NCBI GenBank assembly: GCA_025455775.1 | Contig: JALOLT010000012.1 | Coordinates: 1-37,686 of the forward strand | Reading direction: 5' to 3' | Origin: Fimbriimonadaceae bacterium | GTDB taxonomy: Bacteria > Armatimonadota > Fimbriimonadia > Fimbriimonadales > Fimbriimonadaceae | Length of the DNA: 37,686 nt | Shown here: positions 7,125 through 19,603 of the stretch, one piece after another | Layout: each line of letters opens with the position of its first letter | Position numbering within the stretch: the stretch's first letter is position 1 | Notes under the pieces: generated by a model | What the model was told of the DNA's origin: nothing | The model's input: the letters and a program-made list of their open reading frames with translations, nothing else | The model's database searches: none | Program-made: the position numbers and the translations under genes

Positions 7125-8339
7125 GTGCAGAACGTTGGAGCAGTCATCAAAGTGATCGGCGTCGGAGGTGGCGGATGCAATGCCGTCAACCGAATGGTCG
7201 AATCTGGCATACAGGGCGTCGAGTTCATCGCAATGAACACAGATGTCCAAGTCTTGGATAAATCTCTCGCGAGCAAGAAGATCCAGCTCGGCCCAAACAT
7301 GAGCCGAGGTCTCGGAGCTGGCGGAGATCCTGAGGTTGGGAAGGCATCGGCTGAGGAGAGTAAGAACGAGATCCGAAAAATCATTGAGGGTTCGGATATG
7401 GTCTTCATCACGGCTGGCATGGGTGGGGGGACCGGCACAGGAGCTGCTCCCGTTATTGCCGAACTCGCTAGGGAACTCGGGGCTGTAACCGTCGCAATCG
7501 TGACGAAGCCCTTCCTCTTTGAAGGCGCCCGTCGGAGCCGATTGGCGGAAAATGGCGTCACAGGTTTGATTGGTCGGGTTGATACGATGATCACGATCCC
7601 CAACGATCGATTGTCGGATGTTGTTGAGCGGAAGACGACTCTGACTGATTCGTTCCGGGTGGCAGATGACGTTCTGCGCCAGGGGGTTCAAGGGATTAGC
7701 GATATCATTACGGTTCCTGGTCAGATCAACGTGGACTTCGCCGACGTGAAGGCAGTGATGATGAATGCTGGTCCTGCCTTGATGGGGATCGGTTATGGGG
7801 TCGGGGAACACCGTGCTTTGCAGGCGGCGCAGCAGGCGACCAGCAGTGCCCTTTTAGAGCAGACCATTGACGGGGCTCGGGGTCTTTTGGTCAATGTGAC
7901 AAGCGGGGAAGACTTGACTCTGAGCGAAGTGAACGAGGCGATGGGCTACATTCATAGCCTCTGTGACTCGGACGATGCGAACATCTTCTTTGGCACAGTC
8001 GTGGATCCTAGCCTAGAGGGTGAAGTTCGAATCACAGTTTTGGCAACTGGTTTTACTGGGGAGCCTTCTAAGGCGACGAGTTCTGGTGCTGGTTCTGCGA
8101 CGAGTGGCGCGGTAACTCGGATTCCTGCCTATGAGGAAGTAGTCGAGGAGATTAAGCCAGCCGAACGGCTTGAGCGTCCCAATCCTGTGACTCAACAGAG
8201 GAGCTCGATCAAGGATATTTGGGAAAAGGCGAGTGCCCAGCAGAGGGAATCCACCCCTGCCCCTGAGGACGTGTACGACGACAGTGAGATCGACATTCCT
8301 GCTTTCCTTCGGCAACACAAGAAGGTCGACAAGGACTAA
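7125..8339 (+). CDS. ftsZ: Cell division GTPase FtsZ
   Basis: FtsZ forms the cytokinetic ring. The 404-residue protein shows VGGGGCNAVNRM at 13-24, the tubulin signature GMGGGTGTG at 98-106, and the T7 synergy loop NVDFAD at 202-207. A variable linker runs from about 315 to 380. The conserved C-terminal peptide (DSEIDIPAFLRQHKK, about 386-400) binds FtsA and other partners. The start is GTG, 36 bases after ftsA and preceded by AGGAAG. A possible leaderless or separate promoter in the short gap was not evident. It is the last gene of the division operon and is followed by strong hairpins. Confidence 0.98.
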   Translation: MQNVGAVIKVIGVGGGGCNAVNRMVESGIQGVEFIAMNTDVQVLDKSLASKKIQLGPNMSRGLGAGGDPEVGKASAEESKNEIRKIIEGSDMVFITAGMGGGTGTGAAPVIAELARELGAVTVAIVTKPFLFEGARRSRLAENGVTGLIGRVDTMITIPNDRLSDVVERKTTLTDSFRVADDVLRQGVQGISDIITVPGQINVDFADVKAVMMNAGPALMGIGYGVGEHRALQAAQQATSSALLEQTIDGARGLLVNVTSGEDLTLSEVNEAMGYIHSLCDSDDANIFFGTVVDPSLEGEVRITVLATGFTGEPSKATSSGAGSATSGAVTRIPAYEEVVEEIKPAERLERPNPVTQQRSSIKDIWEKASAQQRESTPAPEDVYDDSEIDIPAFLRQHKKVDKD

Positions 8340-8360
8340 AAAGGGGGCGGAGGTTTGCTC

Positions 8361-8426
8361 TTTTGCCGGCTCGGCCCAGGGCCAATCCCTCAGCCCCTTC
8401 GGGGCTTCTGCCCCGAGCCGGCAAAA
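8361..8426. terminator. Long inverted repeat after ftsZ (first hairpin)
   Basis: A perfect 14-base inverted repeat (TTTTGCCGGCTCGG at 8361-8374, CCGAGCCGGCAAAA at 8413-8426) encloses 38 bases that hold a smaller hairpin (AGCCCCTTCGGGGCT). It starts 22 bases after the ftsZ stop. The right arm ends in AAAA rather than T-run, so it is better read as a structured 3' end or repeat element than a classical + strand terminator. In the other direction the T-run would suit - strand termination. Confidence 0.7.
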
Positions 8427-8469
8427 CCATCTTTCGCTTCCGCCCTACGGGCAGAAGCGAAAGATGGTT
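8425..8469. terminator. Second near-perfect hairpin after ftsZ
   Basis: Arms at 8425-8440 (AACCATCTTTCGCTTC) and 8454-8469 are perfect 16-base complements. The pairing continues inward through GCCC/GGGC to a three-base TAC loop with one mismatch. It abuts the first hairpin directly. Two consecutive stems of this strength probably end the division-operon transcript or protect its 3' end. No long T-run follows. Confidence 0.75.
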
Positions 8470-8882: not shown

Positions 8883-9794
8883 TTAAGCCTTTTGGGCTTT
8901 GCGGCGACGCTTCGCAGCAAGGGCACCGAGTGCCAAGATCGAGAGGGTCATGGGCTCTGGCACTGCGCCGAACTGGGACTCAAGGAAGTCGCCGTTCAGG
9001 GCAGCATCACCTTGGTTGAAGGCCCAACTCGTGTTGTTGAAGGAGCCGCTGTAGACATAAAATCCGTGGAGGGATGAGTCGCTGCCTGAGTTCTCGAAAA
9101 TTCCCTTGAACCCGCCGGTGATAGTGACTGGGTGGTTTGTGCTCACGAACAGGTTGTGGGTTGGATCCCAATTGGCGGTCAGGCCGCTCGCAGTGAAGCT
9201 GATCGAGTAGTTGATGAAGGTACCACTGGTCAGGCTTCCGGCTCCTCCGACTCCTCCGTGCCAAAGCCGGGCGGACTGGTTGGCGAACCCAGGGCCAGCG
9301 TTCTCGCCAGTGGCAACGAGGCTAAATGTCGAGCCGTTCGCAACGCCTGGGGCGAGGGTAGACCACACTCCAGACATACTAGAGATCGTGGTTGCTCCAT
9401 CGTCATACATCTGGATGAAGCCAGTGTTCGTGTTGTTGGGGTTGCCCCAGCCGCTGTAGTAGCGATTTCCGGCTGGGTCATCCTTTGGCAAGCTGTTGGT
9501 GTTGTCTTCTGTCGTGTAGTACCAGGCGGTTAAGAAAGCAGCAAAGTTGCTTCCGTACGTCGGGACGCCATCAACAAAGTAAGTCCCAAGGTCTCGGCGA
9601 TTGTTCGTCGCGGCATCGGCGAGGACATGGTTGCTGACGACGTTCGTTCCAGACTGGGCATCAGCAAGCGTTGCGTAGCGACTCATGGTCATGTCGTAGG
9701 ACATCAAGTCGGTGGCAGCGAAGAATGGAGTCGCAAAAGTTGACGTGGCCAGGGCGAATAGGCCGGTGATCAGGGTGATGCGTGAAACGCTCAT
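8883..9794 (-). CDS. PEP-CTERM domain secreted protein
   Basis: A 303-residue exported protein of unknown function. It has an N-terminal signal peptide (hydrophobic stretch with Ala-rich end near residue 22) and a low-charge, Asn/Thr/Gly-rich body typical of beta-sandwich surface proteins. The C-terminal sorting signal is VPEPMTLSILALGALAAKRRRK: a PEP motif, a hydrophobic helix and a basic tail. In other bacteria PEP-CTERM signals are processed by exosortase, and these proteins are usually surface or biofilm components. No exosortase gene lies in this window. A GAGAGGA ribosome binding site precedes the ATG. The gene has its own terminator and a 199-base gap before the next gene upstream, so it is probably monocistronic. 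I do not recognise the body domain. Confidence 0.87.
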   Translation of the reverse strand: MSVSRITLITGLFALATSTFATPFFAATDLMSYDMTMSRYATLADAQSGTNVVSNHVLADAATNNRRDLGTYFVDGVPTYGSNFAAFLTAWYYTTEDNTNSLPKDDPAGNRYYSGWGNPNNTNTGFIQMYDDGATTISSMSGVWSTLAPGVANGSTFSLVATGENAGPGFANQSARLWHGGVGGAGSLTSGTFINYSISFTASGLTANWDPTHNLFVSTNHPVTITGGFKGIFENSGSDSSLHGFYVYSGSFNNTSWAFNQGDAALNGDFLESQFGAVPEPMTLSILALGALAAKRRRKAQKA

Positions 9795-16378: not shown

Positions 16379-16987
16379 ATGGCGACTTATAGAGGAAGAC
16401 GTTCAGATATTTGCCGTAAAGTCGGCTTCAACCTCTGGGGACGAGCAAAGTGCCCCAGCACGAAACGACCCTACCCACCAGGTCAACACGGTCCCAACCA
16501 ACGAGACCGCCGCATGTCGGAATATGGCGAGCAACTTTTGGCCAAGCAGGTCATTCGCCGCTACTACGGCATGTTGGAGCGCCAGTTCCGCAACACCTTT
16601 GAAAAAGCGAACCGCATGCAAGGTAACACAGGTCTCAACTTCTTGAGACTGCTGGAGATGCGACTGCAAACCCAGGTTTACCGACTCGGTTATGCCAAGA
16701 CATTGGAGCAAGCCCGCCAGATGGTCAGCCACGGACACATCATTGTCAATGGCAAGCTGGTTGATATCCCCAGCTACAGCTGCCGAGTAGGAGATGTGAT
16801 CGGAGTACGCCAGCGCGATTCCAGCACTGGAATCGCAAAGAAGAATGGCTACGAAGGAGCTCCCGTCCCTGCCTATCTCGAAGCGAATGTGGGCGGCATG
16901 GAAGGCAAGATCATCGCTCTTCCGGAACGGGAGGACTTCCCGAACTTTTTCAAAGAGCAGGCAGTCGTCGAGTTCTACGCTCGTTAA
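16379..16987 (+). CDS. rpsD: 30S ribosomal protein S4
   Basis: S4 binds 16S rRNA early in small-subunit assembly and may also regulate translation. The 202 residues include [15 protein letters not shown] (24-38), [16 protein letters not shown] and the S4 RNA-binding domain ([20 protein letters not shown], then [18 protein letters not shown]). Only two cysteines (12 and 25) are seen near the N-terminus, so this is likely a zinc-free form of S4. The ATG follows AAAGAGA. Unlike most bacteria, where rpsD is in the alpha operon with rpsM, rpsK and rpoA, it stands alone here, which is known in several lineages such as Bacillus. Confidence 0.98.
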
Positions 16988-17010: not shown

Positions 17011-17203
17011 GGGGTTGTCTCAAAAGTGGCAGCCCCGTTTAAACTTATCAGAATGCGGTCCGACCGCGTCTTAGTGGCCTTACTTCCCTCGAACCTGCCC
17101 TGCCGAGGCGCAGCCCTGAAGCGAAGCGGAGGGGAGGGCGTGGCCTCGGGGAGGCGGGGCAGGCAGCTCAAAAAAAAGATTGGATCGCTTTTGACCCAGC
17201 TCC
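17011..17203. repeat. GC-rich intergenic repeat, left copy (MITE-like)
   Basis: About 193 bases between rpsD and amt. The core, 17094-17165, is nearly identical in inverted orientation to 18783-18855 (about 70 of 73 positions, with one indel). The outer ends resemble terminal inverted repeats: GGGGTTGTCTCAAAAG at 17011-17026 against the complement of 17188-17203 (12 of 16 match). The core itself is self-complementary (GCCGAGG with CCTCGG, CCTGCCC with GGGCAGG) and would fold strongly. It has no open frame of its own, which fits a non-autonomous element. Confidence 0.75.
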
Positions 17204-17277
17204 TTTTGATTTCTCACTTCAGCGAGAGTTTTTTCGACAGAAGGCAGTTGCTTCCTGGTTAAGTTGTCTGATTTGAA

Positions 17278-17348
17278 CTTAACCCTTGACGGAATCCCCT
17301 TAACAAAACCATAATCCGGCCAGGAGCACTGTTGCTTAACCCTTGACG
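17278..17348. repeat. 14-base direct repeat upstream of amt
   Basis: CTTAACCCTTGACG occurs identically at 17278-17291 and 17335-17348, 57 bases apart, both in the 175 bases before amt. Repeated exact motifs in a leader suggest regulator binding or a duplicated promoter element (each contains TTGACG). No regulator can be named. Confidence 0.6.
17286..17315 (+). promoter_or_regulatory. Candidate sigma-70 type promoter for amt
   Basis: TTGACG at 17286-17291 and CATAAT at 17310-17315 are separated by 18 bases, giving a start point roughly 55 bases before the amt ATG. The -35 lies inside the first copy of the 14-base direct repeat. No second good -10 follows the second copy. Confidence 0.5.
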
Positions 17349-17377
17349 ATGTTGTCGCGACTCGGAGACGCACGGTT

Positions 17378-18733
17378 ATGTCAAAGGTTCTTCATCGCAT
17401 CGTTACTCTGATTGCTTTTCTCAGCCTATCGGCTCTCGCCTTTTCCCAAACGGAATCTCCCGCTCCAGCCATTTCGCCCGCCGACTCCGTTTGGATGATT
17501 GTTGCAACTGCCTTGGTGCTCATCATGACGCCAGCTTTGGCACTCTTTTACGGAGGGTTGGTTCACCGCAAGAACGTCTTGAACACAATGCTCCTGAGCT
17601 TCGCCATGATGGGTGTCGTGAGCTTGGTTTGGGTTTTGGTGGGTTTCAGCATTGCCTTTGGCCCAAGCAGCAATGGACTGTGGGGAAATCTGCAATATGC
17701 CTTTGGTGAAGGCCTTTCTGTGACACAGCCCTTCGCCACTCTGACAATCCCCGTCGCTCTCTTCATGCTCTTCCAAATGAAGTTTGCGATTATCACTCCG
17801 GCTCTCATCTCAGGAGCGGTTGTGGAGCGGGCCAAGTTTGGCGCTTTCCTCTTGTTTACGGCGATCTGGACAATTCTTGTTTATAGTGTGGTGAGCTGCT
17901 GGGTTTGGAACAGTGATGGCTGGCTTTTCAAATTGGGGGCACTCGATTTTGCTGGCGGAACAGTGGTGCACGTTGCATCTGGTTTCGCAGCCCTTGGGAT
18001 CTGTGTGGCTTTGGGAACGCGTAAGCACCCGGGAGCCCAGCCTCACAACACGACCCTCACGCTGCTCGGAGCTGGGCTCCTGTGGTTTGGATGGTTTGGG
18101 TTCAATGCAGGCTCGGCCTATGCGATCAACGACATCGCGATCAATGCATTCTTGGTGACTCATATTGCCGCCGCGGCTGGGATGTGTGCCTGGATGGCAG
18201 TCGAATATCTGGTTGAGAAGAAGGTGAGTGCGGTCGGAGCCGCTTCTGGGCTCGTGGCTGGCTTAGTTGGGATCACCCCAGCGGCAGGCTTTGTGAATGT
18301 TATCGGGGGGCTGGTGATCGGGCTTTCGGCTGGCGCGGTTTGCTTCTATGGCATCAGGCTCAAACACAAACTTGGCTATGACGACGCACTTGACGTGGTG
18401 GGCCTGCACGGAATGGGGGGGATTATCGGTTCGATCTTGACCGGCGTCTTTGCCTCTGCGTCTGTGAATCCTCTGGTCACGGAGAGTTTGGTTCACGGTC
18501 GGATCGCTTTGGTCGGGAAGCAGGCTTTGGGGGTCGGTGCGGTGGCGGTCTTTTCCTTGGTCGTTTCGTGGCTGTTGGCAAAGGCGATTGACAAGGTGAT
18601 TGGCCTGAGAGTGAATGAGGCAGACGAGGAGGTTGGTTTGGACGTCGTGACCCATGGGGAGGCTGGCTATGCCTTAGTCGGTGATGAGTTAGGGCAGCCT
18701 GCTTTGGAGCGAGAGAAGACGCCGGTTGGTTGA
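17378..18733 (+). CDS. amt: Ammonium transporter (Amt family)
   Basis: A 451-residue polytopic membrane protein that conducts ammonia/ammonium. It has an N-terminal signal sequence (about 1-23) and about eleven helices. Family motifs are FYGGLVHRKNVLNT (57-70), the periplasmic gate region, and the conserved pore histidines His198 (GGTVVHVASG) and His344 (VGLHGMGGI). NTTLTLLGAGLLWFGWFGFNAGS (224-246) is the Amt signature. The C-terminus KLGYDDALDVVGLHG and the cytoplasmic tail are present. No glnB/glnK gene follows, so the PII partner is encoded elsewhere. The gene is isolated between two inverted copies of a GC-rich repeat, with the promoter-like sequence inside the interval. Confidence 0.96.
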   Translation: MSKVLHRIVTLIAFLSLSALAFSQTESPAPAISPADSVWMIVATALVLIMTPALALFYGGLVHRKNVLNTMLLSFAMMGVVSLVWVLVGFSIAFGPSSNGLWGNLQYAFGEGLSVTQPFATLTIPVALFMLFQMKFAIITPALISGAVVERAKFGAFLLFTAIWTILVYSVVSCWVWNSDGWLFKLGALDFAGGTVVHVASGFAALGICVALGTRKHPGAQPHNTTLTLLGAGLLWFGWFGFNAGSAYAINDIAINAFLVTHIAAAAGMCAWMAVEYLVEKKVSAVGAASGLVAGLVGITPAAGFVNVIGGLVIGLSAGAVCFYGIRLKHKLGYDDALDVVGLHGMGGIIGSILTGVFASASVNPLVTESLVHGRIALVGKQALGVGAVAVFSLVVSWLLAKAIDKVIGLRVNEADEEVGLDVVTHGEAGYALVGDELGQPALEREKTPVG

Positions 18734-18741
18734 GGCCAAAA

Positions 18742-18912
18742 GGGGCTGTCTCAAGAGGGATTAGGCCCAATTTCTTGGGGTATGCCTGCCCCGCCTCCCC
18801 GAGGCCACGCCCTCCCCTCCGCCTTCGCTTCGGGGCTGCGCCTCGGCGGGGCAGGTGAGTGTCCATGACTCGATCGGACTGCATTCTTGGAAGCCCAACA
18901 AGGGCTGCCTCA
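18742..18912. repeat. GC-rich intergenic repeat, right copy (inverted)
   Basis: Core 18783-18855 is the inverted counterpart of 17094-17165. The homology continues outward on the side away from amt: GCATTCT plus the following GGACT-type block at 18870-18887 corresponds to 17049-17068. The amt-proximal end, GGGGCTGTCTCAAGAG at 18742-18757, matches the terminal sequence of the left copy. The distal end is more diverged (GGGCTGCCTCAC). It begins eight bases after the amt stop, so it may also act as the amt terminator. Confidence 0.72.
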
Positions 18913-18976
18913 CCCAAACACCCTTCCCCCGTAACCATACCGGGTCGAGGGGCTTTCGGAGGGGGCTGTAAAAAAC

Positions 18977-19002
18977 GGGACTGCCTCCATTGAGACAGTC
19001 CC
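18977..19002 (-). terminator. Rho-independent terminator of the double-CxxC protein gene
   Basis: GGGACTG-C-CTC pairs with GAG-A-CAGTCCC around a CATT loop. On the - strand it is followed by CGTTTTTTAC. It lies 46 bases after the stop of the gene at 19049-19603. Confidence 0.85.
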
Positions 19003-19048: not shown

Positions 19049-19603
19049 TTACTTCGTGGCTTCGGCCTTGGTGATGGCAGCGTTGAGCTTGTTGACGTGG
19101 GCTCGGTTGGAAGCATCGAAGTTGACGATGGTGTCAACGATGGTTCGCTTGGAGTACACGAAGACAGTGTTCTTCACTTCTGGGCCTGTGTTGAGCTTGT
19201 AGTCCTTGATCGCGCTGTCGTCCTTACCGATGTAGGCCATTGCAACGTTCTCGAAGGCCTTGTTCTTACCAGCGGTCTTGGCGAAGTTCTCGCAATTCTC
19301 GCAAGTTGTGACCTTGATCATAAAGGCCTTGAATTCGCTCTTGCTGTCAGCAACTCTCTTGTTGAGCAGTTGGGCAGTGGCGACAACGTTCTTTTCTGTA
19401 TCGCTGTTGATCCACACTTGGACGGCAGGTCGGTTACCGTACTTGCAGGGAGGACAGGTGTCGGTACCCTTGTCTGGGCCAGCAACGTGGGTGGGGTGGA
19501 AGGGGATCACTCGGTCACCAGCGCGAAGACCGGAGGTCACAGCAGCGAAAGCTGGCAGGGCAATTGCAGCCACAGCCATACCGGCAAAGATAGCTCGATT
19601 CAT
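19049..19603 (-). CDS. Secreted thioredoxin-like protein with two CxxC motifs
   Basis: A 184-residue protein with a clear signal peptide ending AFAAV near residue 21. The mature part begins GLRAGDRVIPFHPTHVAGPD and carries CPPC at 50-53 and CENC at 101-104. VQVWINSDTEKN and VFVYSKRTIVDTIVNFD look like thioredoxin-fold strands. Similar proteins with an HPTHVxGPDKGT segment occur in planctomycetes and armatimonads as far as I recall, usually as hypothetical or thioredoxin-domain proteins. It is expected to be periplasmic and may take part in thiol-disulfide exchange or bind a metal; that role is inference from the CxxC pairs. AGGA precedes the ATG and a strong terminator follows, so it is probably monocistronic. 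Confidence 0.75.
   Translation of the reverse strand: MNRAIFAGMAVAAIALPAFAAVTSGLRAGDRVIPFHPTHVAGPDKGTDTCPPCKYGNRPAVQVWINSDTEKNVVATAQLLNKRVADSKSEFKAFMIKVTTCENCENFAKTAGKNKAFENVAMAYIGKDDSAIKDYKLNTGPEVKNTVFVYSKRTIVDTIVNFDASNRAHVNKLNAAITKAEATK

Follow-up and report, generated by a model that had tools for sequence, protein, structure and literature searches.

Two near-identical GC-rich repeats lie in opposite orientation on either side of the ammonium transporter gene amt in a Fimbriimonadaceae genome, raising the question of what they are and whether they act on the gene between them. We analyzed the whole 37,686-nucleotide stretch that contains them (the window), which is one entire contig out of the 170 in a draft genome of 2.99 Mb and 98% completeness. 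The initial annotation had taken the repeats for MITEs with insertion-sequence-like (IS-like) termini, able to invert or mobilize amt. The near-identical inverted pair was confirmed: the arms at 17093-17165 and 18783-18856 are inverted and complementary at 40 of 40 and 32 of 34 bases, their cores are 96% identical, and a 35-base core pattern occurs in the window only at these two sites, with no occurrence in 100 shuffles. The outer limits originally given also agree with ours, copy 1 spanning 17011-17203 and copy 2 running from 18742 to a degraded far end near 18913; the GGGG[C/T]TGTCTCAA ends are positioned at 17011 and 18742.

The pair is not an ordinary local duplication, because the repeat is dispersed, with many more copies elsewhere in the genome. 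The search for further copies proposed in the initial annotation returned about 47 near-identical copies of the core, and a module of about 74 nt within each repeat has at least 98 matches in the 2.99 Mb genome (covariance model, E<=1e-3, 150 candidates scored), the genome copy numbers of the module being lower bounds. In a simulation, 47 random positions gave 1.2 neighboring pairs within 1.7 kb; because about that many are expected by chance, a pair flanking one gene is no evidence of a composite transposon. The gene itself is a normal ammonium transporter, present in 7 of 30 relatives searched, and in those seven rpsD was not found adjoining it. We conclude that the pair around amt is two family copies in neighboring intergenic regions, with no shown effect on amt. 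More generally, inverted repeats flanking a gene in such genomes may have nothing to do with that gene. An inversion arising when two copies recombine is in principle plausible, given that copies in other genomes lie at breaks in synteny (see below).

The ends of the repeats proved to be of a different nature from the core. About 30 copies in this genome lie inside a composite of ~160-260 bp bounded by terminator hairpins; some 21 composites have both ends, in inverted orientation, and the ends are absent altogether from about a quarter of copies. The end motif GGGG[C/T]TGTCTCAA has 44 matches genome-wide, as against 5 for the reversed control pattern, and many of these have no adjacent core. 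The ends are GGGGCTGTCTC-loop-GAGNCAGCCCC palindromes that are also found solo, where they read GGGGCTGTCTCAAAAGAGGCAGCCCC and are often followed by T-rich DNA. A strict palindrome pattern has 12 matches in the genome and its reversed control none, and the solo palindromes carry paired changes (CTGACTC/GAGTCAG, GGGTC/GACCC). Ten of the 11 solo hairpins examined lie downstream of a predicted stop codon that faces them, at a distance of 13-61 nt. The best terminator of the region, the hairpin at 18977-19002, combines a GC stem with a T tract (T6 on the minus strand) and has a stem of the same family as the composite ends. The composite ends are terminator-type hairpins, then, and not IS ends; in kind they match intrinsic terminators with a repeated stem sequence. 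The module differs from such terminators, having no T tract on its 3' side and having conserved unpaired loops. As a separate observation, many terminators of this genome share the stem GGGGCTGTCTCN4GAGNCAGCCCC with compensatory changes, as if a favored terminator had spread or converged.

These results bear directly on the possibility of an IS-derived MITE pair, that is, a 190-bp unit with GGGGCTGTCTCAAAAG inverted ends, for which a parent IS would supply the transposase and which could mobilize or invert amt. The 21 or so composites that share both ends inverted, and the genome-wide enrichment of the end motif, are consistent with such elements. However, the ends are stand-alone terminator hairpins, many modules do not have them, and no parent IS was found at the solo ends. 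Target-site duplications were seen in none of 21 composites at 4-9 bp and in one at 3 bp. Identity among the 21 composites is 96% in the core, 51%-59% in the arms, and 26% outside, and arms so much more diverged than the core are the reverse of what a freshly copied MITE would give. Nor did we come across an autonomous element carrying these ends, the genome-wide transposase search having covered the Y1 family. The MITE pair is thus already largely refuted, and we regard it as very unlikely; what survives of the initial annotation is a dispersed repeat, without the IS termini or the mobilization of amt. The resemblance to MITEs in general (PMC10969869) is that the repeats are short, non-coding, and high in copy number and, in the composite form, have inverted ends, but in the module family target-site duplications are lacking, it is the center rather than the ends that is conserved, the ends are terminators, and no parent IS was found.

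What, then, is the module? Its outer stem (P1) is specific to the locus; within it lie a bulge and an internal loop that are both conserved, and an inner hairpin (P3) that varies. P1 is at least 11 bp long and encloses an interior of ~48 nt; its sequence differs by locus yet remains self-complementary. Inside it come GA/GA or GG/CC, a 5-nt bulge (UCGGG), and a short P2 (GGC/GCC), followed by a conserved asymmetric internal loop with GNAG on one side and about GAGGGCGUG on the other. In this genome, P3 usually ends in a GNA or GNRA loop, and the folding energy of the core is -45 kcal/mol. A third, diverged copy in the window, directly after ftsZ (stop at 8339) and before 8883-9794, carries its own perfect P1 stem, TTTTGCCGGCTCGG/CCGAGCCGGCAAAA. 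Table 1 lists the features of the window.

Table 1. Module copies, hairpins, and neighboring genes in the window
Feature	Position	Strand	Details
Module copy 1	17092..17165	+	Covariance model R2, 82.6 bits; covariation; bases read from sequence
Copy 1 P1	17094-17104 / 17153-17163		
Copy 1 P2	17105-17109 / 17143-17147		GAGGC / GCCTC
Copy 1 internal loop	17110-17113 / 17135-17142		GCAG / AGGGCGTG
Copy 1 P3	17114-17117 / 17131-17134		Apical GAA loop
Copy 1 3' bulge	17148-17152		GGGGA
Module copy 2	18783..18857	-	Opposite orientation; R2, 75.3 bits
Third module copy	8360..8427	-	Diverged (type II); R2, 51.5 bits; R3, 56.1 bits; fold
Terminator-like hairpin (the "IS-like end")	17011..17036	+	GGGGTTGTC..GGCAGCCCC; 23 nt past rpsD stop
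Right end of copy 1 composite	17188..17203	+	CTTTTGACCCAGCTCC; degraded complement of left end
End of copy 2 composite	18742..18757	+	GGGGCTGTCTCAAGAG; 8 nt past amt stop
Intrinsic terminator of minus-strand gene 19049-19603	18977..19002	-	GGGACTGTCTCAATGGAGGCAGTCCC + GTTTTTT
amt	17378..18733	+	Ammonium transporter (PF00909); passenger between copies
rpsD	16379..16987	+	Ribosomal protein S4; upstream neighbor

Covariation supports this fold. Weak matches in relatives showed the same architecture with different stem letters, after which the covariance models R1, R2, and R3 were built. Among 58 sequences, 92% of cells pair, compared with 71% in shuffles; double changes fill 243 cells, where shuffles give 62.6; every one of the 11 P1 pairs covaries, and the signal is lost when the partner is shifted by one column. 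Because the 58-sequence alignment was fitted to the model, we also performed an unsupervised scan of all column pairs in 92 sequences (~60 effective), the rows of which are still model-aligned: the top 11 covarying pairs coincide exactly with the 11 pairs of P1, and the next are mainly in P3 (23-43, 26-40, 30-36, and 25-41). Double changes were already present in 8 of the 11 P1 pairs in the first alignment (A1), made from sequence only. Columns 14-15 and 60-61 read G-A/G-A in type I modules and G-G/C-C in type II, suggesting that tandem GA pairs have been replaced by Watson-Crick pairs. G-U pairs outnumber A-C mismatches by 33 to 13 in P1 and by 62 to 3 in P2, so that one strand appears to fold, and the covariance models also slightly favor a one-strand fold. 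A covariance-model search of Rfam 15 (with E-value limits of 1 and 5) found no family over the module, and the literature searched does not describe repeats of this kind from Armatimonadota. The module family was previously unlabelled.

The outer stems differ between copies that are otherwise almost the same. We compared 48 type I modules of this genome, counting P1 stems as unrelated when their 5' arms were no more than 55% identical (286 pairs). Two modules with unrelated P1 are still 94% identical, compared with 96% when P1 is the same. Of the positions in the P1 arms, 97% are paired, a share that falls to 84% when arms are shuffled between copies; examples are the stems AATCTGCCAACC/GGTTGGCAGATT, AGTCTGCCGACC/GGTCGGCAGACT, and CTTGCTCCTCGCC/GGTGAGGAGCAAG. 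Compensated drift of the ordinary kind would not be expected to replace an entire stem and spare the interior. This leaves two possibilities: the module relocates to new palindromes, or gene conversion homogenizes the interior, since conversion of the inner module would also yield uniform modules in different stems. Some stem complementarity could, moreover, be created without selection by template-switch correction of quasi-palindromes. Empty palindromes with the same stems were absent from 465 kb of this genome's sequence. A near-identical interior in a site-specific outer stem departs from what the papers cited here describe for REPs, RPEs, and MITEs, and it points to dispersal by another mechanism.

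We next consider where the module occurs. At least 11 of 291 Armatimonadota genomes match at E<=1e-5 (16 candidates scored per genome), all of them from the window's own family, in its own genus and five other genera; relatives carry between a few and ~100 copies, and dozens are reached in genomes of at most 1 Mb. When ~85,000 named genomes were scanned with a pattern, 26 stretches were returned, exclusively from Armatimonadota (SZAS-2, SZAS-8, Uphvl-Ar1, Fimbriimonadaceae MAGs, BC.035, and a MAG labelled Chthonomonas sp. UBA2017) and from rumen or gut MAGs labelled Rickettsiales. There are three of the latter, with 38%-42% GC around the copies, which are themselves GC-rich units of ~90-130 bp with GTTGCGC/GCGCAAC ends. 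Model R2, built from Armatimonadota only, detects these rumen copies. The three MAGs (0.8-1.0 Mb) have 60, 85, and 81 module matches, and module density in the rumen MAGs reaches 156 matches in 725 kb. Among 131 genomes of their order, the only match was one of the three MAGs itself, the center of the search. Carriage by phages or viruses was rejected, as the module pattern had no match in IMG/VR. Overall, these data strongly support a structured repeat family that is abundant in two distant groups.

Comparison of related genomes indicates that copies are both retained and turned over. In one Armatimonadota genus the module lies at the same locus in three species, where P3 changes from CCGATCCGC/GCGGATCGG to GGGGATTTGGC/GCCAAATCCCC with most loop letters kept, and P3 behaves in the same way at a second orthologous locus in two species. 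When the rumen MAGs are compared with one another, 43 of 108 syntenic-block ends fall within 40 bp of a copy (~8 expected), although some of these ends reflect divergence or presence/absence rather than rearrangement; at least two inversion endpoints have a module copy in the gap. Modules have also been gained or lost between these MAGs, and there are candidate empty sites with altered flanks or element remnants; in these cases we found no clean empty site or target duplication. Beside one orthologous copy, BC.035 has an extra 2.4-kb segment (L148 1590-4040) that is absent from Uphvl-Ar1. We rejected it as an autonomous element, since by reading it encodes a sigma-factor-like protein and a membrane protein and has no evident transposase.

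The bursts of copies in some genomes, their near-random orientation, their presence or absence between species, and the strand-specific fold lead us to lean towards a new REP-like family: non-coding, non-autonomous repeats that fold as single strands, are spread by an enzyme acting in trans, and are re-housed in new stems. The module would multiply as folded single-stranded DNA (or RNA), the enzyme supplied in trans would spread it, and new palindromic stems would be acquired along the way. Multiplication and re-housing are what we infer from the copies. The genome-wide transposase search covered the Y1 family (PF01797, Y1_Tnp), which had no match in this genome, although control genomes were positive; reverse transcriptase (RVT_1) was found neither here nor in the rumen MAGs, and we therefore rejected retro-type spread by a resident reverse transcriptase. 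Both enzymes are thus excluded as residents of this assembly, and an enzyme since lost is possible. Because both are absent and no enzyme was identified, mobility is deduced only from how many copies there are and from their presence or absence. With the covariance model, the question of dispersal becomes testable.

How close is the family to known repeats? Like REPs, REPINs, and BIMEs, the GTAG superfamily with RAYT (PMC3733652, PMC3116915, PMC2817692), it consists of short, palindromic, non-coding units in high copy number that form single-strand hairpins and mixed-orientation clusters and are patchy between species. Copies in this genome are nearly all intergenic, and the family shares the hallmark of REP-like dispersed repeats in general, a palindromic non-coding unit present many times between genes. 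However, REPs are simple hairpins of 20-40 bp (PMC3733652, PMC3116915, PMC2817692), whereas the module, at ~70 nt, has two nested stems with conserved internal loops and an outer stem that differs between otherwise identical copies. Unlike the GTAG REPs, it has no RAYT/Y1 gene in its own genome, and the aligned copies, inspected by eye, share no GTAG tag (as defined in PMC3733652) at either end. The CGTC REPs, which are present in Alphaproteobacteria including Rickettsia (among them RPE-4 and RPE-6), are likewise dispersed palindromes without a dedicated transposase (PMC3733652). Their stems of 8-9 bp, loops of 4-5 bp, and CGTC/CCA ends (PMC3733652) nevertheless set them apart from a module with the P1 and interior lengths given above, and the GC-rich rumen units with their GTTGCGC/GCGCAAC ends differ from them as well.

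A bolder reading, which we think doubtful, is that the module is mobile nucleic acid of a new class: small and folded, recognized as a single strand by way of its conserved internal loop, mobilized by an enzyme that is neither a Y1 transposase nor a reverse transcriptase, and having crossed between Armatimonadota and a reduced-genome alphaproteobacterial lineage. Such a module might be inserted into, or might itself build, a new palindromic stem at each site.

Two explanations dispense with mobility. The module could be a structured functional RNA, acting in cis or in trans, that is often duplicated and kept for its function. The strong covariation and one-strand fold, the orthologous copies preserved with compensatory changes, and the GNRA/GNA apical loops would all fit. 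However, the gene context in this genome (13 copies between convergent genes, 6 between divergent ones and, among copies between tandem genes, 11 with the same sense and 8 with the opposite one, by a simple gene caller) amounts to a near-random orientation, unlike what an ordinary leader or 3'-UTR element would show. We noticed no common neighboring gene, and the wide range of copy numbers, with dozens in genomes of at most 1 Mb, and the mixed-orientation clusters also argue against a functional RNA, which we consider unlikely. Alternatively, the copies could be passive hairpins, terminator or transcription-insulating palindromes homogenized by gene conversion and kept palindromic by template switching during replication. 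Their intergenic position, often between convergent genes, their very GC-rich perfect stems, and the terminator hairpins that adjoin many of them are consistent with this. Nevertheless, the 3' side of the module lacks the T tract, a simple hairpin would have no need of the conserved unpaired loop and bulge common to Armatimonadota and rumen MAGs, and the G-U excess lies on one strand; this explanation therefore strikes us as distinctly improbable.

Finally, a few copies of the family have unusual arrangements. In composites L023 and L065 the module is inverted relative to the arms, implying either an ability to flip or acquisition in the reverse orientation. Several modules (C112, C7 start, and C163) are preceded by another repeat of ~70 bp, CCCTGTTGGAACAGGTGAAACTCTAGTCCCCTGCTCAGGATTAACGCTTTCTGTTAACCTGGGAAGC, which is partly tandem with truncated modules. 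In one composite (C7:36946-37315) the module interior is tandemly amplified, in about four units of ~54 bp.
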